Assembly (NCBI GenBank): GCA_001899635.1
Contig: MKVQ01000048.1
Location: 1 to 64,000 of the forward strand
DNA from: Myxococcales bacterium 68-20
Lineage (GTDB): Bacteria > Myxococcota_A > Polyangia > Polyangiales > Polyangiaceae
Direction of reading: 5' to 3'
Length of the DNA: 64,000 bases
Shown: positions 37,377-50,811 of the stretch, in pieces
Layout of the letters: every line of letters begins with the position of its first letter
Position numbering within the stretch: the stretch's first letter is position 1
Notes under the pieces: generated by a model
Databases searched by the model: none
What the model was told of the DNA's origin: nothing
The model's input: only the letters and a program-made list of their open reading frames with translations
Program-made: the position numbers and the translations under genes

Positions 37377-38682
37377 ATGATCCGTAAACGCGCTGGCCAA
37401 CGGAGCTTCTCGGACGCCTTCCTCTTCGGCGCCCACATCCCCGATCCGAAGACGCTGCTCGACCCAGTGCTTCGGCAGCTCGACGAGGTTCTCGAGAGCG
37501 ACGAGCTCGTGGACGAGGTGCTCGACGCGCTTCGGAAGCGCCATCCGCAGAGCGGTCGGCGCGGTCGGCCGGGAACGCCGGCCGAGGTCGCGCTGCGGCT
37601 ACTCGTGCTCAAGCACTTGCGCCAGTGGAGCTTCGAGGAGCTGCAATGGGAGGTCACCGGGAACGTCGCGTATCGAGCCTTCTGTCGGATCGACAGCGGC
37701 AAGGTCCCCGATGCGAAGACGATGATTCGGATCAACCAAGCCGTCGATGAGGCGACACTCCGGCGCGTCTTCGAGCGCGTGGTCGAGCAGGCAAAGCACC
37801 GGAAGCTGACTCGGGGACGTCGAATGCGGGTCGACACGACGGTCGTCGAAACGGGCGTTCGGTACCCGCTCGATAGCGGCCTGTGCGAAGACGTCACGCG
37901 CGTGGCGTGCCGGGAAATGGAGCGGGTGCGGGCAGCAGGGCTGCCTGTGCCCGACACCTTTCGCAACGTCCGACGCAGCGTCGCCCGACGTCTCTACGAA
38001 ATCGAGCAGATCGGCCGGCGGCCGACGAGCCGCGAAGCGAAGCTCGAAGCGCTGAAGAGGCCGTACAGACGTTTGCTCCGCGTCACAGCGCGCGTTGTGC
38101 GCCAGGCACGCGCAGTCGTGGAGGCGTCGAAGCGACTCCGGAGGACGATCCCCGGCGAGATTGTCCGCAGCCTACGTGTCCTTGAGGGCATCGTGACCAA
38201 CGGCAAGCAGGTCGTGGCGCAAACGCGGGCGCGCATCCTTCGCGGCGACACGAGGTCGGAGGGCAAGCTCGTCAGCATCTTCGATGCCTCACACGCAGAT
38301 CATTCGCAAGGGCAAGAAGCACAAGCCCAACGAGTCGTCGATCGATGCTCACAAGAAGTGCTTCGGCTTCGCGCCGGGTCTGCTCTCCGCCGATCGCGGC
38401 TTCTACTCGACCGCCAACATCGCCCGCGCTGTGGAGATGGGCGTGCGCCACGTAGTGATTCCGAAGCCCGGTCATCGAAGCGACGCCGTTCGCGAAAAGG
38501 AACGCGCGCGCTCGTTCCGCCGCGCACGCGCGTGGCGCGCCGGTGGAGAGGCGCGCATCTCGCGGCTGAAACGAACCTTCGGAATGGCGCGCTCGCGCTA
38601 TCGCGGCGAAGCCGGCCTCGCGAGATGCGCCTACTGGGCGGCGATCGCGAACAACCTGGTGGCGATCGGGAGGGCGCCGTGA
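37377..38682 (+). pseudogene. Transposase with frameshift and internal deletion
   Basis: The intact N-terminal part (MIRKRAGQRSFSDAFLFGAH ... RVDTTVVETGVRYPLDSG) reads to about residue 300 and ends LVSIFD. At about 38283 the frame shifts by one base; the next frame reads PHTQIIRKGKKHKPNE and runs to ANNLVAIGRAP. Relatives read LVSxFEPHTxIIRKGK without a break, so one extra base is present. After KGKKHKPNE the sequence jumps to SIDAHKKCFGFAPGLLSADRGF, so about 40 codons of the catalytic core are missing relative to relatives I recall. The enzyme should be inactive. Confidence 0.85.
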
Positions 38683-38729
38683 GTCTGGCTCGGGCTCCGG
38701 GCCGCACGCCAGCCTCGGTGGTCGGCCGA

Positions 38730-38750
38730 GCCCGGCATCGGATGCCGGGC
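38730..38750. repeat. Perfect 10-bp hairpin downstream of the transposase
   Basis: GCCCGGCATC and GATGCCGGGC separated by one base. Without a U-tract it is not a typical terminator, but it lies just after the end of the transposase remnant inside the IS. Confidence 0.5.
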
Positions 38751-38847
38751 GCCGGGACCGGTACCGGCAACCGGCACCGGTAGCCGAGTAACCGCCACCT
38801 CGGGCGCCTCGAAGTCGGGCCGAGCGCGGAGCGGCCGGGTTCTTCAG

Positions 38848-40485: not shown

Positions 40486-41919
40486 TCAGTACTCCGTTGA
40501 GTTGGCGACGATGAATCCCCATGAGCCTGCGGTGAGATTTCGCACCTCCAGTTTGTTCGTGCCATTGCTGGCTGGACCGATGACGTTGCCAATCCAGAAC
40601 AGTCTCGTATCACCATAGTACGTAAGCACGGCCTGAAGAAGGCCCCCACCACTCGATCCCCCACTCGCATCCACACCGCCGCTGACGTGAAGGTGAACAC
40701 CGTTGGGCTGAAGGATCGTGTTGTACTGAGGAACGTTGCGCCCGATTAGGGTAATTGCGCTGTAACCATTGCCGAACACCGTCGGCGAATTTGGCGGAAG
40801 AATCCCAGTGTTGTCGTACGCGCTCAGCTCGGTCTGGGGACCGCCGTGATAGTCGGCCGCGTTTCCATACCCTGGCCACAACCAGCCCGTCGTGGTGCCC
40901 GGCTGGAGTCCGCAGGTAAACTCTATGATTGCGAAGTCGTCAGCTCTTGCAACGACCGAGTTGCCAGTCTGGAAGGCAGCCGGAATCGTAACAGTGTAGC
41001 AGCCTGTGGTCGGGGCGTACGAATAGTAGTAGTTGTACGGATCGGCGCTGGTGTCCCGGTAGCGTACCTGCCCGAGCGCCCATGTCGCCCCGATCGCGCG
41101 CGAGGTCCATTTGTTTTTCTTACGATCCCAAAAGCAGTGCGCGGCACCGATCGCGGTGTACCGTCCAATCATCGTCGCAGAACAGCCAGCCATGTTGACC
41201 TGCGCACTCTTTGGCCACTGTGTTCGCTGAGCTCTCGAAACATAGTAGCGATCGTCGGTCCCGACGATGAGTGATTCGCCGTCGTTCACGTCAAAGTTCG
41301 TGAGCGCCAGGGCAGACGAGGGCGCCGACTGAACAAGGCCAAGCGGGTCATCCGGACGGTGTACTATGCCAGCAGCCGGCGGCGCCACGAGGCGGCCCCG
41401 CGCCCCCGGCGAAGGGTAGCCCCGCGGCAACCCCGACGCCTGAGCTCGCGCTTCAGCGAAATCGCTGGAGAGCGCAACCTCGCGATACTCTATCCCATCG
41501 GCGAGCATGACAGCGCGCAGATCCCCCTCATCGACGATGCCAGGGGCATCATCTCCGGTCGGCACGGGCGGAAAGGATGGAACCTCATCGGATGAACTGA
41601 TGCGCGCGCGCCGCGCGCGCCAATGGCGCCCTTGAGCGTCGACAACCAGGCGGCCCTCTCCATCCTCCGGCAAGGACTGCGCATCCAGTTTGTCGACGTC
41701 CGCAGACGCGACATCTGCAGCTTGCAGCGGCGAGTCAACGGTGACGCTGGAGCGGGAGACGCGTGCATCTCCTTCGCCCAACACCTCGGCTGGCTCTTGA
41801 GCCGCAGGCCCGCATGCCGAAGCGAGCAACGCCAGCACTACATAGGCTCCCCTGCCCGTCGCGACCTTGGAGGCAACCATGTGGAGACGTTGGCGGAGGG
41901 AATTCTTCGGAAACACCAT
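40486..41919 (-). CDS. Trypsin-like serine protease lipoprotein
   Basis: A 477-residue secreted protease. The signal has lipobox LASAC; a propeptide-like region runs to about residue 200, and the S1 chymotrypsin fold follows. The triad is visible: GAAHC with H261, DDFAII with D328 and GGSSGG with S423 (a variant of GDSGG with Ser for Asp). Cysteines at SATMIGRYTAIGAAHC and GCYTV fit. Compared with neighbours the gene shows more A/T in third positions (TAT, AAT, GTA), suggesting recent transfer. The ATG at 41919 was chosen; an ATG at 41880 would give a shorter signal peptide with better charge, and a TTG at 41958 gives a longer one. Confidence 0.85.
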   Translation of the reverse strand: MVFPKNSLRQRLHMVASKVATGRGAYVVLALLASACGPAAQEPAEVLGEGDARVSRSSVTVDSPLQAADVASADVDKLDAQSLPEDGEGRLVVDAQGRHWRARRARISSSDEVPSFPPVPTGDDAPGIVDEGDLRAVMLADGIEYREVALSSDFAEARAQASGLPRGYPSPGARGRLVAPPAAGIVHRPDDPLGLVQSAPSSALALTNFDVNDGESLIVGTDDRYYVSRAQRTQWPKSAQVNMAGCSATMIGRYTAIGAAHCFWDRKKNKWTSRAIGATWALGQVRYRDTSADPYNYYYSYAPTTGCYTVTIPAAFQTGNSVVARADDFAIIEFTCGLQPGTTTGWLWPGYGNAADYHGGPQTELSAYDNTGILPPNSPTVFGNGYSAITLIGRNVPQYNTILQPNGVHLHVSGGVDASGGSSGGGLLQAVLTYYGDTRLFWIGNVIGPASNGTNKLEVRNLTAGSWGFIVANSTEY

Positions 41920-42201
41920 GCTTGACTCGACGGTAACCTCTTCGTCGAAACCGCTCAAGTCGAGAATATCTCTTGTTGTACAGAGTGCGGTTTTTCTGCG
42001 ATGACTCTCAAGTAGCGGAAACTACGTAGGCGGCGACGGGCTGAGGCGGTGGATATCTGGGGGACGTGGCCGATCCCCAGCGGCCTTCCGCGCCTTGCGC
42101 CCTACCGCTCCGAAATCCCGGTGAGTCCGAAGTCTTGCCAAGATGAGCATCCGTCCGCGGGCAACACGCCGTGATCATTCGTGCGGGTGAAGACCTTGTC
42201 G

Positions 42202-42879: not shown

Positions 42880-43452
42880 TCACGGGACGGTGATCTTGCC
42901 CTGCTTGCCAGGGACGTGACAGTTCGCCGAGTCGCAGCTCGCGGCGGCGCCCGCGCCGAGCGCAGTGCTCATGCTCTCGATGCCGGCCGCGCTCCGGACG
43001 TGCGTCTTCGAGCCCGCCTTCACCGGAGCGCCGAGCAGCCAGAAGAACCCGTCGGTGTCGCTCTTCACCGGGCCGAGCTTCTCCGCGCCGTTGACGACGA
43101 CGACGTCGACGTCAACGGCGGGGGACGTTCCTCGGACGACGCGACCGCCGAACGAGAACGCCTTGTCCTTCGCGCTGCCGGCCGCCGTGTGGCACGAGAG
43201 GCAGTCGAGCGTGTCCGAGGCCGCGGGACCGCCCTTCGCCGCGTGCGCGGCGCTCATCGTCGTCGTGGGCTTGTTGGCGTTGGCGTCGTAGTCGGCCCCG
43301 AAGACGCCGCCTCCAGCGCCGCCCGTCGCCGACTCCTTCGGAAGCGGCTTGCCGAGGATGACACCGGCAGCGCCGAACTGCGGCTCGTCTGGACCGCAGG
43401 CCCCGAGGGCTACCGGCAGCAGCAGCGTCACCAGGAGCGAGAGCGCGCGCAT
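42880..43452 (-). CDS. Haem-motif lipoprotein with beta-sandwich insert
   Basis: A 190-residue lipoprotein (ALGAC, lipid Cys about 18). It has a CxxCH motif (CLSCH) after a flexible linker, then a beta-rich domain (AFSFGGRVVRG ... DTDGFFWLLG), then a C-terminal C-x4-CH (CDSANCH) and a short tail. The same order, haem motif, beta domain, haem motif, is seen in the protein at 45655, so these look like paralogues. It may be a small electron carrier on the envelope. The start MRALSLLVT is fixed by the signal peptide. Confidence 0.75.
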   Translation of the reverse strand: MRALSLLVTLLLPVALGACGPDEPQFGAAGVILGKPLPKESATGGAGGGVFGADYDANANKPTTTMSAAHAAKGGPAASDTLDCLSCHTAAGSAKDKAFSFGGRVVRGTSPAVDVDVVVVNGAEKLGPVKSDTDGFFWLLGAPVKAGSKTHVRSAAGIESMSTALGAGAAASCDSANCHVPGKQGKITVP

Positions 43453-43734
43453 CGCTCGAAAGAGAGCACGACGCGTGCCTCCGGGCGAGGGCAGACGGCC
43501 CTGCCGGTAGAGCGGGCACCCGCGCGAACTTTTAGCAGCGGCCGTTTTGAGGGTCATGCGTCGCCCGAACCCCCTGTAGTGTAGACCACTGCATGACTGG
43601 CGCGCGGATCCACCAGCCGCAAGCCCCCGTCGTGGGCAGGGGGCCCCGCTCAGCGAGGATCCGTCGTCCGGAGCGCTCGCCCGGCATGTGGACCGCTCCG
43701 TGCTTTCGCCGCGAGGGGTCTCGCGAGGAGTTGG

Positions 43735-45651
43735 ATGGCATTGGCTGAAGCGGCGCGACGGACCTCCTCGATGACCGAGCTCCGCGCACGCAATCGAAGG
43801 GGCGTCGTCCCTCTCCTCGCTGCGCTCCTTGCGCTGCTCTTCGGCGTCGATGCGTACGCGGGCCCTCAGGTCGCCCAGCGGGGCCGTCCCTCACCGGCCC
43901 CCACGCCCGCGCCCGCACCCGAGAAGGAGCGCCCCTCACGTGGGTGGTCGAATCCGAAGGCGCTCGAGCTCGCCAAAGAAGGGATCGAAGCAAAGAAGAG
44001 CGGTGACCTCACGCGGTGCATCCAGAAGGACCAAGCGTCCCTCGTGCTGGAGGAGCACCCGTACGTGCGCCTGCACCTCTCGAGCTGCCTCGCCGGTCAA
44101 CGGCGCTTCAAGGACGCCCTCATCGCCGCGCGAGACGCCCTCGCCGCCGGCATCCGGAACCAGGACGAAGACCTCAAGCGAGCGGCCCTCGCGCGCGTGC
44201 AGGAGCTGTTACCGAAGCTCGCGAAGGTGACCCTGGCGATCCCGAACAAGACCGCGGGGCTCAGGATCACGCTCACGCCGGCCGTCGGAGCGGGCACGTC
44301 GATCCGCCCGAGCCAGCTCAAAGGTCCGATCACGGTCGACCCGGGCGAGTACACGATCGAGGCGGTACGTGAGGAGAAAGGCGATCGCTATCTCTTCAAG
44401 GAGAAGTTCACGATCGACGAAGGTGAGGAGAAGGAGATCGAGATCCTCCCGAAGAGGGACCACCTCCCCGACGAGATCGAGGAGTGCCTTCGCAACGCGA
44501 AGACGTACAAGGAGCGCCTCAAGTGCATCGAGGAGACGACGACCCGTCCCAACGTCCGCGTCGGGCTCGAGATGAGCGCCTACACCGACTCGACCGCCGT
44601 CCATGTCCTCACGCCGGCGATCAACGCTTCGGTCGTGTCGCCGACGGGAGGGTGGAACGTCGGCGGCTCGTACCTGCTCGACATGGTGACGGCCGCGTCG
44701 CCGGACCTCGTATCGACCGCATCGCGCTCGTTCCGCGAGCAGCGTCACGCGGCGTCTCTCGCCGGCGGCTACAAGTTCTCCTTCGCGCAGGTCGGCGTGA
44801 ACGGCAACGTGTCGAGCGAGCCGGACTATCTCTCGCGCACGCTCGGCGGCTCGCTCAGCACCGAGCTCAACGACAAACTGATCACGCCGCGCGTCGGCTA
44901 CAACTACTCGTGGGACACGATCGGCTACCGCAACACGCCGTTCGATCAGTTCAGCCGCGCGTTGACCACGCACGCGATCGAGGCGGGCGTGACGTTCGTC
45001 CTGTCGCCGACGACGCTCCTCGTGACCGGCATCTCGATGAGCTTCGAGCGCGGTGAGAACTCGAAGCTCTATCGCTTCATCCCGATGTTCCCCGCCGACA
45101 TCGCCGATCGCATCCCGGCCGGCGCGACCGTCGCGCTCGTCAACGAGCAGCGCCTCAGCGTCCGCCCGCGCGAATTCGTCCCACAGCAACGCGACCGCTT
45201 CGCGATCGGCGCGCGCGTGAACCATCGCTTCGCGAGCGGGACGCTTCGCATCGAAGAGCGCATCTACACGGACAACTGGGGGATCAAGGCGTCCACCACC
45301 GACGGCCGCTATCTCCACGACCTCGGCGAGAACCTCCGCGTCTGGCCGCACCTCCGTCTCCACGCGCAGTCGGGCGCGAGCTTCTACCAGCTCGCCTACA
45401 CGGCGGCCGTCGACCAGCAAGGCACACCGGTCGAGATCCCGCGCTACCGGACCAGCGACCGCGAGGCCTCGCCGATGGTGGCGGTCACCGCGGGCGGCGG
45501 CGCTCGCATCGCGCTCACGAGCGAGAAGGCAACGACCCAGTACGCGATCGTCGTGTCCGGGGACGTCATGTACAATCGCTACCTCGCGTCCCTCTTCATC
45601 CTGAGCCGTACCGCCGTCTGGGGCACGATCGGCTTCGATGCGGAGTTCTGA
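43735..45651 (+). CDS. DUF3570 outer-membrane beta-barrel protein
   Basis: A 638-residue protein. A signal peptide ends near AYAG (about residue 42), a Pro/Arg-rich linker follows, then a TPR-like helical region (about 72-165: LELAKEGIEAKKSGD, LHLSSCLAGQRRFKDALIAA). A beta domain (about 166-240) carries PGEYTIEAVREEKG. The DUF3570 barrel starts near 275 (VRVGLEMSAYTDSTAVHVLTP) with SSEPDYLSRTLGG, and it ends in Phe, as outer-membrane proteins usually do. The ATG at 43735 has AGGAG 4 nt upstream; a second ATG at 43771 also fits a signal peptide. It starts an operon with two haem-motif lipoproteins, 3 bp before the next. Confidence 0.88.
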   Translation: MALAEAARRTSSMTELRARNRRGVVPLLAALLALLFGVDAYAGPQVAQRGRPSPAPTPAPAPEKERPSRGWSNPKALELAKEGIEAKKSGDLTRCIQKDQASLVLEEHPYVRLHLSSCLAGQRRFKDALIAARDALAAGIRNQDEDLKRAALARVQELLPKLAKVTLAIPNKTAGLRITLTPAVGAGTSIRPSQLKGPITVDPGEYTIEAVREEKGDRYLFKEKFTIDEGEEKEIEILPKRDHLPDEIEECLRNAKTYKERLKCIEETTTRPNVRVGLEMSAYTDSTAVHVLTPAINASVVSPTGGWNVGGSYLLDMVTAASPDLVSTASRSFREQRHAASLAGGYKFSFAQVGVNGNVSSEPDYLSRTLGGSLSTELNDKLITPRVGYNYSWDTIGYRNTPFDQFSRALTTHAIEAGVTFVLSPTTLLVTGISMSFERGENSKLYRFIPMFPADIADRIPAGATVALVNEQRLSVRPREFVPQQRDRFAIGARVNHRFASGTLRIEERIYTDNWGIKASTTDGRYLHDLGENLRVWPHLRLHAQSGASFYQLAYTAAVDQQGTPVEIPRYRTSDREASPMVAVTAGGGARIALTSEKATTQYAIVVSGDVMYNRYLASLFILSRTAVWGTIGFDAEF

Positions 45652-45654
45652 GCC

Positions 45655-46242
45655 ATGAAGTCCCGGCACCAGAACCGACGAAACACGTTGCGCTCGCTGA
45701 CGGCCCTCGCCTTCGTCGCGACCGTCGTCGTTGCGTCGGGCCTCGGCGGATGCACCGATCCCGTGCGTGATGCCGAGATCGAGGCGCTCGGCCCCGAGGA
45801 GCCCGGCGTGACGCCCAACGCGGAGCACCGCCCCGGCCAGCCCTGCCTCCACTGCCACACGAAGGGCGGGCCCGCGTCGAACAAGCCCTTCGCGATCGCG
45901 GGCACGATCTACGAGACCGACCAGCCCGGCTCCAAAGGCGCCGACGGGATCACGGTCCAGTTCGTCGACTCGGCCGGCGGGGCGCCGCGGGAGTCACCGC
46001 AAACCGGGCCTTCCGGCAACTTCTACGTCCCGCTCCAGGACTGGCCCGACCTCCGGTACCCGGTCCGCGTCGGCCTCTACGAAGATCCGAACGGCCCGCC
46101 GACCGTGATCATGAAGAGCCTCATCAATCGGGAAGGCTCGTGCAATTTCTGTCATCGACCGAACCTCTCGGACATGACGGACGACGAGATCGACGACAGC
46201 CGCAGCTCCGCCGGTCAGATCTTCATGAGGTCGGGCGGATGA
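45655..46242 (+). CDS. Dihaem-motif lipoprotein (cytochrome c-like)
   Basis: A 195-residue lipoprotein (GLGGC, lipid Cys about 33). A CLHCH motif near 64, a carboxypeptidase-regulatory-like beta domain (FAIAGTIYETDQPGS ... SGNFYVPLQDWPD), and a CNFCH motif near 165. The spacing and insert match the 42880 lipoprotein. It follows the DUF3570 barrel by 3 bp and overlaps the next gene by ATGA, so translation is coupled. Together they may make an outer-membrane electron conduit, but no oxidant or reductant is known. Confidence 0.82.
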   Translation: MKSRHQNRRNTLRSLTALAFVATVVVASGLGGCTDPVRDAEIEALGPEEPGVTPNAEHRPGQPCLHCHTKGGPASNKPFAIAGTIYETDQPGSKGADGITVQFVDSAGGAPRESPQTGPSGNFYVPLQDWPDLRYPVRVGLYEDPNGPPTVIMKSLINREGSCNFCHRPNLSDMTDDEIDDSRSSAGQIFMRSGG

Positions 46243-46790
46243 TGATCGCACGCTCGAAGCTCCACTCGTTCCTCGTGGCGCTCGCGACGTCGGTCGTCAT
46301 CGCGGCGGCGGCCTCGTGCAGTCTGCCGACCGAATCGGGAGAGTTCGGAGATCTGCCCGATCGCGCGTCCTTCGTCGACAACAAGGTCTCCTTGTTCATG
46401 GAGGTCCGCTGTGGCGGCCTCGATTGCCATGGTCAGGACGGCCGCCCGCTCCGGATCTACGGCCAGACCGGGCTGCGCCTGAAGGCGAAGGCGGACGGCT
46501 CACGCGACAACTCGCCCACCACCGACGAAGAGCGGACGGAGAACTACCGATCCGTCGTCGGGCTCGAGCCCGAAGCACTGGCGGAGTGCTTCGAGTCGAA
46601 GGGCGAGATCATCGACACGTTCCAGCTGCTCAAGAAGCCTCTCGGAATCGAGAACGGCGGCATCCGCCACAAGGGAGGCCCCGTCCTGCGCGCCACGCAG
46701 TCGGACCCGGGATGGCAATGCCTCTACGGCTGGGTCAGCGACAACGTCGACGCCGCCCAATGCGAGCAGGCCGCCAAGATCATGCCGTGA
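46239..46790 (+). CDS. Lipoprotein with C-x4-CH haem-like motif
   Basis: A 183-residue lipoprotein (AAASC, lipid Cys about 21). The motif RCGGLDCHGQDGRPLRIYGQ is a C-x4-CH haem-c-like site, known from cytochrome c3 and other non-canonical cases, and it resembles a motif in other envelope proteins of Myxococcota and Planctomycetes. A later IRHKGG and QCLYGWVSD fit the same unnamed family. The ATG overlaps the stop codon of the previous gene (ATGATGA), so it belongs to the same operon. Haem attachment is not proven. Confidence 0.75.
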   Translation: MMIARSKLHSFLVALATSVVIAAAASCSLPTESGEFGDLPDRASFVDNKVSLFMEVRCGGLDCHGQDGRPLRIYGQTGLRLKAKADGSRDNSPTTDEERTENYRSVVGLEPEALAECFESKGEIIDTFQLLKKPLGIENGGIRHKGGPVLRATQSDPGWQCLYGWVSDNVDAAQCEQAAKIMP

Positions 46791-47122: not shown

Positions 47123-47707
47123 TCACACGTCGCCGGGGAGGTCGAGCGCCCCTTCGAAGATCTCGTCGACGACCAGGATCGTTCCAGTCGTGAGCTCGAG
47201 CCGGCCTCCTGCGCCCACGACGCGATAGCGCCACGATCCGTCCGCCTCACGAGCGAAGTGCTCGAGCCGCGCGAGGCGCTGCGAAACGAGCACGTAGTCG
47301 GAGAGTGACGGGATGCTGCGATAGTCCTCCCACTTGTCCCCCCGGTCATGCGGCTCGGTGCTCTTCGAGAGCACCTCGACGACGACTCGCGGATTGTCGA
47401 TCACGTCCGCCGTGCCGTCATGCAGCTGGACCGGACCGCAGACCACAGTGCCATCGGGGTAGACGAAGTTGCCCGAAGCGGGAATGAAGACCTTCTGATC
47501 CGAAGAGAATGCCCCGCAAGGGCCGCCCTGAAGCGCGGCGTCGAGGCGAGCGAGGATCCGCACGCAAAGCCGATTGTGGCGCGGGCTCCCGCCCGCCATC
47601 GCGTAGACTTCACCGTGAAGGAGCTGATGCTTCTCGCGCTGCGTACGCTCCCACTCGAGGTACTCGGCCGGGGTCATCCTCGAGAGAGGTGCAGTCGAAA
47701 CGCCCAT
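47123..47707 (-). CDS. Uma2-family (DUF820) nuclease-like protein
   Basis: A 194-residue Uma2 protein: MTPAEYLEWERTQREKHQLL, HNRLCVRILARL, then the catalytic FVYPDGTVVCGPV and RVVVEVLSKST, typical of the family. Compared with the copy at 36290 it lacks the coiled-coil tail and has the usual size. The ATG at 47707 is preceded 6 nt upstream by TACTTT and no ribosome-binding site. Confidence 0.9.
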   Translation of the reverse strand: MGVSTAPLSRMTPAEYLEWERTQREKHQLLHGEVYAMAGGSPRHNRLCVRILARLDAALQGGPCGAFSSDQKVFIPASGNFVYPDGTVVCGPVQLHDGTADVIDNPRVVVEVLSKSTEPHDRGDKWEDYRSIPSLSDYVLVSQRLARLEHFAREADGSWRYRVVGAGGRLELTTGTILVVDEIFEGALDLPGDV

Positions 47708-47713
47708 GCTCGG

Positions 47714-47719
47714 AAAGTA
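47714..47719 (-). promoter_or_regulatory. -10-like box TACTTT before the second Uma2 gene
   Basis: TACTTT (context GTGCTACTTT) ends 6 nt before the ATG at 47707 on the minus strand. Confidence 0.4.
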
Positions 47720-47888
47720 GCACGGGCGATGAAGCACGCCGGCAGGGCTTCGTCTCGGCGATCTCGTGACGGCGCCGCGGCGCGGGCCATACGAAGTGCA
47801 AGCACCTGCACGACGTCGCGTGGCGCCGTCGCAGGTTCGATGAGCTCGCTCGAGCGTAACGTCGCGGGACGCAGGGGAAGCCCGCGCT

Positions 47889-48806
47889 TCATCGTCGACT
47901 ACCTCCTCCGGTGGACTTCGCCTTCGCGCGGCCCTTGAGGAGCATCTCCGGGTCCCGCTCGAGGTCGTCAGCGAGGGTGCGGATGCTCTCGGCCGTCTCC
48001 CGGATCGCACGCAGCGCCTGGTCGAGCTCCCGGGCCGTCCGGCCCGCTCCGTCGATGCGAGCGAGCACGCCGTTCATCGTCGCGACCGCCTTCGAGACGT
48101 CATCGAGCGTCTTCGAGGTCTTCTCGGGCAGCGCCGCGCGATCGAAGCGACGGAGCGTTTGGCCGAGGGCCGCGAGGGCCTGGTTGGCCTCGGTGAGCGT
48201 CGACGCGGCCTTGTTCGCCACATCGTCCTTCTCGAGCTGCGCGACCACCCGATCGATACGGCTCGTCACCGCAACGATGGCATCGACGAGCTCGGGGAGC
48301 TTGTCCATCGCCTTGATGGAGGTGTCCTCGAGCGTCTTCATCATGCTGGCCGTCGCCGGGATGTGCCTCTCTGCCTCCGCGAATGGCAGCTGCGGAGGCG
48401 GATTCTCCTTCGGATCGAAGAAGTCGATCGCGACGAACTTCCCGCCGGCGATGCCTTCCGATGCCAGCTGCGCGCGCAGGTCGGGTGGGACGTCGAAGCG
48501 CCCCTTCGAGGCTCCGGTGCCGAAGCCCATCTGCGGGAGAGCGTCGAGGTTGATCTGCTCCGTGACGTCGACGTGGCGGTGGTCGGGCGCGATCGCGATC
48601 GCCGAGACCGCGCCGACGGTCACGCCACGGAACATCACCGGCGCGTCGACCTGCAGCCCCTGCACCGACTCGTTGAAGTACGTGTGGTAGTCCACCGTCT
48701 TCTTCTCGATTCGCGGAGCCGCGAGGACGATGCCAATGGCGATCGCGGCGACGACGGCGAGGATGACGAAGAGCCCGATCTTGAAGTGATTGGCAGGCGT
48801 AGCCAT
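47889..48806 (-). CDS. mlaD: MlaD-family (MCE) lipid-transport protein
   Basis: A 305-residue periplasmic substrate-binding protein anchored by one TM helix (9-29). The MCE domain follows with FNESVQGLQVDAPVMFRGVT and VGAVSAIAIAPD. The C-terminal half is a long helical region with heptads (LEKDDVANKAASTLTEANQA), typical of MCE proteins that build a tube across the periplasm. It is the last gene of an Mla operon (STAS-MlaE, MlaF, MlaD), 9 bp after the ATPase gene. No MlaB or MlaC gene is adjacent. The operon retrieves or delivers phospholipids to the outer membrane. Confidence 0.9.
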   Translation of the reverse strand: MATPANHFKIGLFVILAVVAAIAIGIVLAAPRIEKKTVDYHTYFNESVQGLQVDAPVMFRGVTVGAVSAIAIAPDHRHVDVTEQINLDALPQMGFGTGASKGRFDVPPDLRAQLASEGIAGGKFVAIDFFDPKENPPPQLPFAEAERHIPATASMMKTLEDTSIKAMDKLPELVDAIVAVTSRIDRVVAQLEKDDVANKAASTLTEANQALAALGQTLRRFDRAALPEKTSKTLDDVSKAVATMNGVLARIDGAGRTARELDQALRAIRETAESIRTLADDLERDPEMLLKGRAKAKSTGGGSRR

Positions 48807-48815
48807 GCGGGCCTC

Positions 48816-49640
48816 TCAACCGCTGCTCCCTCGGCGCGGCCGCCGGTCGAAAAATTCGGACACGCGGGGGTCGTCGCTCTCTGCGAGCTCGTGTGGGGCG
48901 CCGGTCGCGATGATCCCCTTCGACTCCCGGTCGAGCATGATGGAGCGGTGGACGATCCTGAAGATCGTCTCGAGCTCGTGCGTGACGACGACGACCGTGA
49001 GGCCGAGCGACTCATTGAGCGTAACGATCAGGTCCTCGATCTCGGAGGCCGTGATCGGATCGAGGTCGGCGCTCGGCTCGTCGAGGAACACGAGCTTCGG
49101 CTCGAGCGCGAGCGAGCGGGCGATGGCCGCACGTTGCCTCATCCCGCCGGAGAGCTCGCTCGGAAACTTGTCGTACGCCCCGCCGAGCCCGACGAGGCGG
49201 AGCCTCGCCTTCGCGATGGCGGTGATGGCGTCGGGAGGGAGGTCCGTCCACTCCTCGAGTGGCAGCTCGACGTTCTCGCCGACCGTGAAGCTGCCGAAGA
49301 GCGCACCGCCCTGGTACATGATGCCGAAGGGAGGGAGCCCCGCATCGAGGTCGATGTTGCGTCGGCCGGCGACGAGGACCTCCCCCACTTCGATCGGCTC
49401 GAGGCCAACGATGTAGCGGAGCAACGTCGACTTGCCGCAGCCGCTCGGTCCGAGGATGGCGAAGATCTCGCCGCGCCGCACATCGAAGGTCACGTCCTTC
49501 AGGAGGACGACATCCCCCCAGCCGACTGTCAGCTCCTTCACCCGGATGATCGGGGTAGCGTCCTGACGGTCCTCTCCGCTTGCGCCTGCGCCGGTGCTCG
49601 GCTCGCGCGTGCCCTCGCCGATGGAGGTCGCTTCCGTCAT
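48816..49640 (-). CDS. mlaF: MlaF-like ABC transporter ATPase
   Basis: A 274-residue ABC ATPase. Walker A is GPSGCGKST, the Q-loop is near YQGGALF, the signature is LSGGMRQRA, Walker B is LVFLDEPSADLDP and the switch is THE. The FGIMYQGGALFGSFTVGENV segment is typical of the MlaF/Mkl subfamily of lipid-transport ATPases. Its ATG lies one base after the TGA of the permease gene, and a TEATSIG-rich tail precedes the domain. It powers the STAS-MlaE permease. Confidence 0.92.
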   Translation of the reverse strand: MTEATSIGEGTREPSTGAGASGEDRQDATPIIRVKELTVGWGDVVLLKDVTFDVRRGEIFAILGPSGCGKSTLLRYIVGLEPIEVGEVLVAGRRNIDLDAGLPPFGIMYQGGALFGSFTVGENVELPLEEWTDLPPDAITAIAKARLRLVGLGGAYDKFPSELSGGMRQRAAIARSLALEPKLVFLDEPSADLDPITASEIEDLIVTLNESLGLTVVVVTHELETIFRIVHRSIMLDRESKGIIATGAPHELAESDDPRVSEFFDRRPRRGSSG

Positions 49641-49641
49641 G

Positions 49642-50811
49642 TCAGCGCCCGAACTCCTGGAGGATGATGGTGAAGATCGCATCGAGCACCACGAGCGCGA
49701 AGAGGGACATCACGACCGTCGAGGTCGTTCGCTTGCCGACGCCCTCCGCGCCACCGGACACGGAAAAGCCCTGCTGGCAGGCGATCAAGGCGATCGCGAT
49801 CGCGAACACGACGCTCTTGATGACCCCTTGTCCCACGTCCCAAAGACCGACGGCCTCTCTCGTCTCGATGAAGTAGCCCTTCACACTGAGGCCGAGGCTG
49901 GCCACCCCGGCGCAGAGCCCACCGAGCACGCCGACGACGTCCGCTACGAGCGTGAGCGCAGGAACGATCAGGACGAGTGCGAGCACGCGCGGGACGACGA
50001 GCCAGGCGAAGGGGCGGAGGCCGAACGTGCGCAGCGCGTCGAGCTCCCCGGAGATCTTCATCGAGCCGATCTCCGCCGCGAACGCGGCTCCCGATCGTCC
50101 GCAGACGATGATCGCGGTCATGAGCGGCGCGAGCTCGCGCGTCACCGTGAGGCCGACGAGGTCGGCGATGTAGAGGGCCGCGCCGAACACGGCGAGCTCC
50201 CCCGAGGCCTGGCTCGAGGCCTGGTAGGCCATGACGAAGCCGACGAGGAAGTTGATGACCACGACGATCGGCACGGCGTCGGCGCCCGCTCGCTCGACGA
50301 GCGGCGGGACCTCCTTCAGGTGGCCCTTGCGCGGGCTTCGCGCGAGCGCCAGCCCGGAGACGACGAGCTCTCCAAGGAAGGCGATGACGCCCTCCAGACC
50401 TTCGCCCATCCTGACGGTAGCGCGACCGACCTGCGCGATCGCGCTCTCGGGCTCGCGCTTCTTCCGCTTCTCCGGCGGGGCCTCGACGCCGTACAGCTCG
50501 ACGAGCGACCTGAGATGCGAGGGAGTGCCCTGGATGTCGGTGCGCACACCGCGCGCAGCGAGCTCCGTCCGCAGAGCCACGATGAGCGCCATCACGGCTC
50601 CGTCGATCGCATGCGTCCCCGAAAGGTCGACCGTGAGACTCCCGCCCCTCGCGCCCTCGGTCGAGCGGTGTAGCTCTCGCCAGATCGCCGGCGCCTCGTC
50701 CATGCGAAAGTCGCCCGTCAGATGAAGAGCCCCCTCGCTCAGGGCGACGGCGAAGGCCGGCCCGTCCGCGGTGTCGAGGGTCGTCGCACCAGAGCCCACG
50801 GTCCCAAGCAC
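49642..50811 (-). CDS. mlaE: MlaE-like permease with N-terminal STAS domain
   Basis: A 389-residue protein: an N-terminal STAS domain (about 20-105: FAVALSEGALHLTGDFRMDE ... LSGTHAIDGAV) fused to the MlaE permease (from about 150), with the conserved FVMAYQASSQAS, VTRELAPLMTAIIVCGRSGAA and GVASLGLSVKGYF segments. In enteric bacteria the STAS subunit is the separate protein MlaB, so this fusion explains its absence. The GTG start at 50811 follows CGAGGT. It is the first gene of the operon. Confidence 0.92.
   Translation of the reverse strand: MLGTVGSGATTLDTADGPAFAVALSEGALHLTGDFRMDEAPAIWRELHRSTEGARGGSLTVDLSGTHAIDGAVMALIVALRTELAARGVRTDIQGTPSHLRSLVELYGVEAPPEKRKKREPESAIAQVGRATVRMGEGLEGVIAFLGELVVSGLALARSPRKGHLKEVPPLVERAGADAVPIVVVINFLVGFVMAYQASSQASGELAVFGAALYIADLVGLTVTRELAPLMTAIIVCGRSGAAFAAEIGSMKISGELDALRTFGLRPFAWLVVPRVLALVLIVPALTLVADVVGVLGGLCAGVASLGLSVKGYFIETREAVGLWDVGQGVIKSVVFAIAIALIACQQGFSVSGGAEGVGKRTTSTVVMSLFALVVLDAIFTIILQEFGR

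Follow-up and report, generated by a model that had tools for sequence, protein, structure and literature searches.

A conserved cassette of a DUF3570 barrel and two haem-motif lipoproteins in Polyangia, a candidate haem-lipoprotein variant of a flavin redox system

What is a DUF3570 gene doing beside lipoprotein genes with haem motifs? The question was raised by a stretch of 64,000 nucleotides of Myxococcales bacterium 68-20 (contig MKVQ01000048.1, positions 1 to 64,000; the window), in which a DUF3570 gene is followed on the same strand by the genes of two lipoproteins, named here lipo1 and lipo2, and a third lipoprotein, lipo3, is encoded on the other strand (Table 1). A first-pass annotation of the window had read the locus as a candidate envelope redox module, perhaps an outer-membrane electron conduit or a haem-sensing complex. 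In our study, the barrel and its two lipoproteins were found to be a conserved and repeated cassette of the Polyangia, beyond what chance would give. We favour, with moderate confidence, the reading that the cassette varies the flavin redox system of DUF3570 and DUF4266 by the addition of haem lipoproteins; the envelope would then contain a relay from the periplasm to a flavin-bearing loop at the surface.

The 11.9-Mb source genome contained four DUF3570 genes, three of them in cassettes with lipo1 and lipo2. The two cassettes outside the window (C43 and C42) contained lipo1, lipo2 and DUF4266, and the fourth DUF3570 gene (C2) had a canonical first flavinylation motif and DUF4266 without lipo1. 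The nearest DUF3570 in the named genomes was 86% identical and was found in two metagenome-assembled genomes of Labilithrix, to which the source is thus related. Among 377 genomes of the phylum, DUF3570 was found in at least 138 and lipo1-like proteins in at least 116; up to four DUF3570 and eight lipo1 candidates were scored per genome, and further copies may exist (10 candidates in genome G120, five in G163). Among the lipo1 matches of at least 82 bits listed for these genomes, 49 of 52 adjoined a DUF3570 gene, the exceptions being loci L100, L101 and L117. One of the ten weaker matches fetched stood beside DUF3570, in a non-random choice for which ranks were skipped and L130 was picked because of a listed DUF3570 neighbour. 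From the phylum search, 80 DUF3570 loci were taken in rank order minus the contigs already taken for lipo1, and class sizes among them are therefore not frequencies.

The first-pass annotation had proposed conserved co-occurrence across genomes as a check, and such co-occurrence was found. At the loci found in named genomes by DUF3570 sequence alone (the best 80 of 154 relatives, 20 of which also belong to the phylum set), lipo1 was present in 80/80 and lipo2 in 77/80, and the three loci without lipo2 (L234, L237, L278) stop at contig ends. The same loci contained DUF4266 (57/80), a third lipoprotein family named cl8 (47/80, some matches weak), a thioredoxin-like protein (15/80), DUF2271 (11/80) and no ApbE (0/80). 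Barrel, lipo1 and lipo2 followed one another on one strand, with gaps below 400 bases, in 41 of 50 phylum-set cassettes and in 69 of the 80 named-genome loci. The phylum-set cassettes were seen in 28 genomes, every one of them in the class of the window, which the named relatives point to as the Polyangia. On a tree of 130 barrels with the motif columns removed, the cassette barrels formed one group (one change; Shimodaira-Hasegawa-like approximate likelihood ratio test, 93). Because the three genes stand together at three places in one genome and at all (lipo1) or 77 (lipo2) of the 80 loci, and because their motifs are invariant, the arrangement is more than chance.

The proposed relay would run as follows. 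Electrons would be supplied in the periplasm by a cytochrome pool, or by DsbD and thioredoxin via the Cys-x-Cys lipoprotein DUF4266 where it is present. They would pass from lipo1 (two haems) to lipo2 (one haem), both anchored at the outer membrane beside the barrel, and from the haems to one or two molecules of flavin mononucleotide (FMN) on a predicted extracellular loop between strands 3 and 4 of the barrel. The FMN would be attached by an ApbE encoded elsewhere in the genome, and the final acceptor, extracellular or in the outer membrane, might be ferric iron or another oxidant. In at most one fifth of the cassettes DUF2271, mostly with a canonical flavinylation motif, may add a flavin or take over the flavin role. 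The direction of the flow, the acceptor and the contact between the parts are what we infer. A more specific claim, which we consider possible but doubtful, is that of a new kind of outer-membrane redox unit in which covalent flavins and haems are joined. Each of the tandem heptads on an extracellular barrel loop would bear an FMN, attached by a distant ApbE under a relaxed D-x-x-[S/T]-A-A-S motif, and electrons would come from one lipoprotein with two haems and another with a single haem, both at this membrane.

The haem part of the relay rests on the motifs of the lipoproteins. In the 50 cassette rows of lipo1, the lipid-bearing Cys, His58 and both CxxCH motifs were conserved in 50/50 and Met153 in 49/50. 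In those of lipo2, the lipid-bearing Cys, the C-x4-CH motif, His144, Cys161 and Trp165 were conserved in 50/50 and Cys175 in 48/50. In the window, the lipid-bearing Cys is residue 33 of lipo1 and residue 27 of lipo2; the motifs are CLHCH at 64 and CNFCH at 163 in lipo1, and CGGLDCH at 58 in lipo2. The extra invariant His of each lipoprotein, together with the Met of lipo1, looks like axial ligation of an attached haem. In lipo1, CxxCH thus occurs with a candidate second axial ligand, as in a c-type cytochrome. With conserved co-occurrence and invariant haem motifs and candidate ligands, the earlier description as a candidate envelope redox module was supported.

Family matches of lipo1 were broad but weak. 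Cytochrome_C7 was matched by 60 of 73 lipo1 members (E up to 0.1; best 3e-4), the doubled CxxCH family by 48/73 (E up to 0.1) and the carboxypeptidase-regulatory domain CarboxypepD_reg by 24/73 (E up to 0.1; best 1e-5). Thirteen PDB sequences were matched by lipo1 at E up to 10, and 12 of them are cytochromes; most of these matches centre on a single CxxCH, and the only one below E 0.001 (5.3e-6) was a fused cytochrome c555 trimer, with three weak repeats. The source genome encodes the cytochrome c assembly protein family (three matches). The AlphaFold2 model of lipo2 was all-helical, with a mean predicted local distance difference test score (pLDDT) of 88.8. By profile comparison, lipo2 was linked at 99.7% to 13 looser lipo2-like proteins of other DUF3570 loci, at least three of which (two of L166, one of L199) had no visible motif, and this set was linked at 94.2% to Planctomycete cytochrome C, PSCyt1 (PF07635), three rows of which derive from one protein; control pairs did not exceed 26.7%. 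The cl8 family, with C-x4/5-CH by eye, lies upstream in many cassettes (for example L006:10043-10738). Its profile link to PSCyt1 was 95.9%, and no Pfam family was found in the two members run.

Haem motifs were also seen outside the cassette. A lipo2-like C-x4-CH lipoprotein was present at DUF3570 loci without lipo1 (L177, L204, L165, L198, L200, L169 and others); these are 13 weak matches, at least three of them doubtful. The link between DUF3570 and haem motifs is therefore wider than the cassette. At other non-cassette DUF3570 loci (L005:9708-10256, minus strand, and eight similar ones) another lipoprotein family was seen, in which the spacing from Cys to CH is very variable and which could carry an unusual haem motif or none. 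Tandem lipo1-like proteins distant from DUF3570 were seen at L123, L128 and L129.

Several results weigh against the proposed relay on its haem side. The lipo1 of the window itself matched the doubled CxxCH family (E 0.01, below the cut-off) and an unrelated family, and no other cytochrome family was matched by it in Pfam. No Pfam family was found for lipo2 (PSCyt1 in 1 of 69 members, E 0.034), its comparison with PDB sequences gave no match, and the fold search of the PDB with its model gave nothing with E below 2.9 or Z of at least 2. The direct profile links from lipo2 to PSCyt1 (15.4%) and to cl8 (0.9%) were low. Three haem motifs by themselves cannot bridge the outer membrane. In line with some of these results, the Cys and His residues could instead bind another metal or form disulphides, in a thiol- or metal-handling outer-membrane complex without cytochromes. 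Such a complex would account for the two further conserved Cys of lipo2 and its missing cytochrome fold, for the spacing from Cys to CH, which ranges by eye from about 4 to 13 across the wider set of neighbouring lipoproteins, and for the thioredoxin of 15 of the 80 loci and the DsbD of at least one cassette. We consider it improbable, however, since most lipo1 members match cytochrome families, if weakly, a His directly follows the second Cys in 50/50 rows, the extra invariant His residues and the lipo1 Met fit axial ligation, and lipo2 relatives link to PSCyt1.

The haem-sensing complex of the first-pass annotation, or one for haem uptake, did not survive the analysis. The haem motifs themselves speak for it and nothing more. 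The CxxCH motif serves covalent attachment of haem, not reversible sensing, and where recurrent neighbours were run through Pfam, it recognised no sensor, haem oxygenase, anti-sigma factor or TonB receptor, none of these having been searched by name. This explanation was rejected as very improbable.

The flavin part of the relay rests on the barrel. The DUF3570 product of the window matched PF12094 with E 1.7e-25 and 90.2 bits (curated cut-off 25), and its residues 266-638 were modelled by AlphaFold2 with 16 long strands, as we read them from the DSSP list, at a mean pLDDT of 92.3. The nearest PDB folds of the model were outer-membrane barrels, including a BamA model, PelB, BcsC, CymA and OmpG. 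The window DUF3570 is thus predicted to be an outer-membrane barrel, in agreement with the earlier call of a beta-barrel. The loops from odd to even strands are 4, 13, 2, 11, 44, 4, 35 and 7 residues long in the model, and those from even to odd strands are all of 8 residues or fewer. Of two tandem heptads resembling flavinylation motifs, the first runs from the last part of strand 3 into the 13-residue loop between strands 3 and 4, and the second lies in this loop, where the pLDDT is 62-67. Such barrels usually have both termini in the periplasm, and the loop with its heptad residues would therefore be extracellular. About 260 residues precede the barrel as an N-terminal extension. By eye this extension is like a tetratricopeptide repeat (TPR), as had been annotated, whereas no TPR was detected by Pfam in residues 66-265.

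Flavinylation of this family has been described. The DUF3570 protein of Chlorobium luteolum was flavinylated by ApbE at two [S/T]GA[S/T] sites (PMC8238504). DUF3570 and DUF2271 were the two domains of unknown function shown there to be flavinylated, and the purpose of DUF3570 in electron transfer was left uncertain. In DsbD clusters of this type, ApbE, DUF4266 and a thioredoxin are the usual additions (PMC8238504). In the window, the two motifs are replaced by TAAS and STAS. Motif counts were taken from the phylum set only, because one named-genome search pattern contains the AAS motif, and the truncated locus L092 was excluded from them and from the tree. Alignment A5 contained 30 rows (the window and 29 of 49 other cassette barrels), and alignments A6, A7 and A8 contained 72 of 78 rows, 68 of 75, and 74 of 80 relatives plus the window, respectively. 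Three positions of each heptad (Asp, Ala and the acceptor Ser/Thr) were conserved throughout the cassette barrels, each in 49/49.

On the flavin side, the same motif speaks against the relay. The Gly of the first site was found in 0/49 cassette barrels (Ala 41, Thr 7, Asn 1) as against 23 of 28 ApbE-linked barrels, so that flavinylation may have been lost. The DUF4266 partner was missing at the window locus, with three copies elsewhere in the genome. A clade that lost flavinylation of its barrel, in which the haem lipoproteins replace the flavin and D-x-x-x-x-A-S serves structure or an unrelated contact, would agree with the missing Gly, with ApbE in 0/80 cassette loci and with the exchange of flavin and cytochrome known from other systems (PMC8238504). 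A decaying motif would not be expected to keep its Asp, Ala and acceptor positions in both heptads at 49/49, however, and a Gly-to-Ala change was partly tolerated in the fumarate reductase of Klebsiella, where about 50% of flavinylation was kept (review, PMC12052999). Five of the 28 ApbE-linked DUF3570 proteins (L199, L205, L207, L210 and L211, with TAAT, SSAS, SAAS or TSAS) also lack the first-motif Gly, and these are natural test cases for a relaxed motif. Moreover, in six genomes (G006, G163, G314, G292, G339 and G120) the DUF3570 proteins found were all without the Gly, and ApbE was encoded in six of six. We therefore regard a haem-only cassette as rather unlikely. The argument that motif loss proves flavin loss was dropped, given the invariance of the other motif residues and the partial tolerance of Gly-to-Ala.

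A single ApbE gene, on another contig, was found in the source genome, and ApbE was encoded outside the cassette in 28/28 cassette genomes and never inside it. Among the matches listed, ApbE was found in 75 of the 77 genomes of this class that have DUF3570 and in 15 of the 27 that do not (Fisher p 7e-7, a test that ignores relatedness). Many genomes hold the cassette type and the canonical type of DUF3570 together, and this correlation therefore does not single out the cassette, a further point against the flavin part. The search for FMN_bind and DUF2271 covered 66 of the 104 genomes in the class. In the six genomes named above FMN_bind was not found, and in three of them DUF2271 was not found either. 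Where the cassette barrel is the only known substrate, ApbE was present in 3/3, as against 5 of 10 genomes of the family with none of the three substrates (Fisher p 0.23); adding six genomes of another family gave 5/16 without substrates (p 0.058). That the ApbE profile proves flavinylation of the cassette was accordingly dropped as an argument. DUF2271 was present in 10 of 50 phylum-set cassettes, a count that, like the 11/80 above, rests on a profile from four seeds. Seven of these ten loci carried D-A-[IV]-T-G-A-T, and the remaining motifs were DAITAAT or DAISSAT. From the sequences, then, the cassette barrel may plausibly be flavinylated.

The coordinates of the features are given in Table 1. 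The likely start of the DUF3570 gene is the ATG at 43771. The translational coupling of the two lipoproteins noted earlier was confirmed, with 3 bases between the DUF3570 stop and the start of lipo1. The third lipoprotein, lipo3, was indeed related: it is a remote lipo1 relative by phmmer (E 4.9e-6 against the lipo1 of L238, 2.3e-7 against a lipo1-like protein in L124 and 0.05 against the lipo1 of the window), with a probable start at 43452 and not 43557. Homologues of lipo3 were found in the cassette loci L223, L224, L226 and L073, and DUF4266 was not found in those four.

Table 1. Position of the cassette genes, the heptads and the divergent lipoprotein in the window
Feature	Coordinates	Strand	Remark
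DUF3570 outer-membrane barrel gene (predicted)	43735..45651	+	PF12094 match to product residues 330-587
Tandem flavinylation-like heptads DMVTAAS (316-322) and DLVSTAS (324-330)	44680..44724	+	Asp, Ala and acceptor Ser/Thr kept, Gly absent (49/49 cassette barrels)
lipo1 lipoprotein: CxxCH / carboxypeptidase-regulatory-like region / CxxCH	45655..46242	+	
lipo2 lipoprotein with C-x4-CH	46239..46790	+	ATGA overlap with lipo1
lipo3, divergent upstream lipoprotein, remotely lipo1-like	42880..43452	-	CLSCH and CDSANCH (CxxCH and C-x4-CH)

The neighbours of the 50 phylum-set cassettes were grouped from crude gene calls into families; 18 families stood beside at least four cassettes, and from each of the 13 that had no name one member was run through Pfam. 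Among the families named were protein kinases (15 loci) and sigma-54 activators (9 loci), both common in such genomes. A rhomboid, a zinc dehydrogenase, an aminotransferase and an OmpH-like protein also recurred. A di-haem oxidoreductase (putative peroxidase, PF06537) was found near 4/50 cassettes of one genus (L089, L094, L096 and L098), about 3.5 kb downstream of lipo2, with a further conserved gene between them in three of the four loci. The absence of a reductase or peroxidase, noted in the first-pass annotation, thus holds for the window cassette but not for these four. Another four cassettes (L103, L107, L110 and L114) had nearby a protein with as many as five CxxCH motifs, and the fullest cassette seen, L079, contained DsbD, a thioredoxin-like gene and two DUF2271-like genes. 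With haem-family, DsbD or thioredoxin-like neighbours at some loci, the redox theme reaches beyond the core cassette; no enzyme was seen common to the cassettes. Among the neighbours run through Pfam, no enzyme that would name a substrate was found in more than 5/50 cassettes, which also counts against the relay. The three copies in one genome with changing neighbours suggest a general relay.

In the window, an operon of the Mla/MCE lipid-transport kind adjoins the cassette (MlaD, ABC ATPase and MlaE genes by Pfam, 47889-50811, minus strand), and its end is overlapped by a Uma2 nuclease-like gene (47123-48010). The protein encoded at 40486-41958 on the minus strand matched trypsin weakly (E 0.012, under the cut-off), and a product with a DUF772 transposase domain is encoded at 37377-38783 on the plus strand.

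The first-pass annotation had called the system undescribed. This is so for the pairing of DUF3570 with haem-motif lipoproteins, for which neither a report nor an experiment on the cassette was found in the literature, but not for DUF3570 itself, which has been published as flavinylated by ApbE together with DUF4266 and thioredoxin (PMC8238504). In our literature search, DUF3570 and DUF4266 were each found only in that eLife survey, whose main text lacks the words Myxococc- and Deltaproteobacteria, and nothing was found that joins Polyangia with multihaem cytochromes and extracellular electron transfer. DUF2271 was listed for at least 12 papers, PMC11334425 among them. The DUF3570 redox system is known, and its haem-lipoprotein form would be new, the haem part being predicted. 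A clade that ties DUF3570 to specific haem-motif lipoproteins provides partners for it and a possible outer-membrane route by which haem would pass electrons on to flavin. Relatives are carried by the named strains Polyangium fumosum DSM 14668 and Minicystis rosea DSM 24000. If flavins and haems do act together at a small barrel, passage of electrons through the outer membrane may not need the large Mtr and Pcc machines, and a relaxed motif, if true, would widen the set of predicted ApbE substrates.

Among known systems, the porin-cytochrome conduits Mtr and Pcc are like the cassette in that an outer-membrane barrel is encoded beside putative c-type cytochromes, and Pcc also has atypical CX3-15CH motifs (PMC4245776). 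Their barrels have 18-22 strands (Pcc) or 28 (Mtr) and their periplasmic cytochromes 5-14 haems (PMC4245776), whereas the cassette has 16 predicted strands and three haem motifs (two in lipo1, one in lipo2). Both counts lie outside the definition given in that paper, and membership was rejected. An electron conduit, as first annotated, is thus possible in a loose sense and not in that of Mtr/Pcc. By fold search alone, a chain of the Mtr complex (6r2q_B) stood at Foldseek rank 41 with a TM score of 0.31.

Planctomycete cytochrome C is linked to lipo2 relatives by profile comparison and by a shared P-I-L...C...CHG context, and lipo2 differs from it by its C-x4-CH and by the low direct profile link of 15.4%. 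BcsC and PelB, which we take to be TPR-bearing outer-membrane export barrels, resemble the cassette barrel in fold along the full length of the model (Z 18-20), and the part before the cassette barrel is likewise TPR-like by eye; identity is 8-9%, other outer-membrane barrels score no lower (BamA model, Z 21.5), and no kinship is claimed. The ApbE-DUF3570-DUF4266-thioredoxin(-DsbD) clusters (PMC8238504) share with the cassette the DUF3570 barrel, an extracytosolic redox theme, the acceptor residues of both sites and, in 57/80 and 15/80 loci, DUF4266 and thioredoxin. Unlike those clusters, the cassette is without ApbE (0/80) and without the motif Gly (0/49), its window copy is without DUF4266, and two haem-motif lipoproteins are added.

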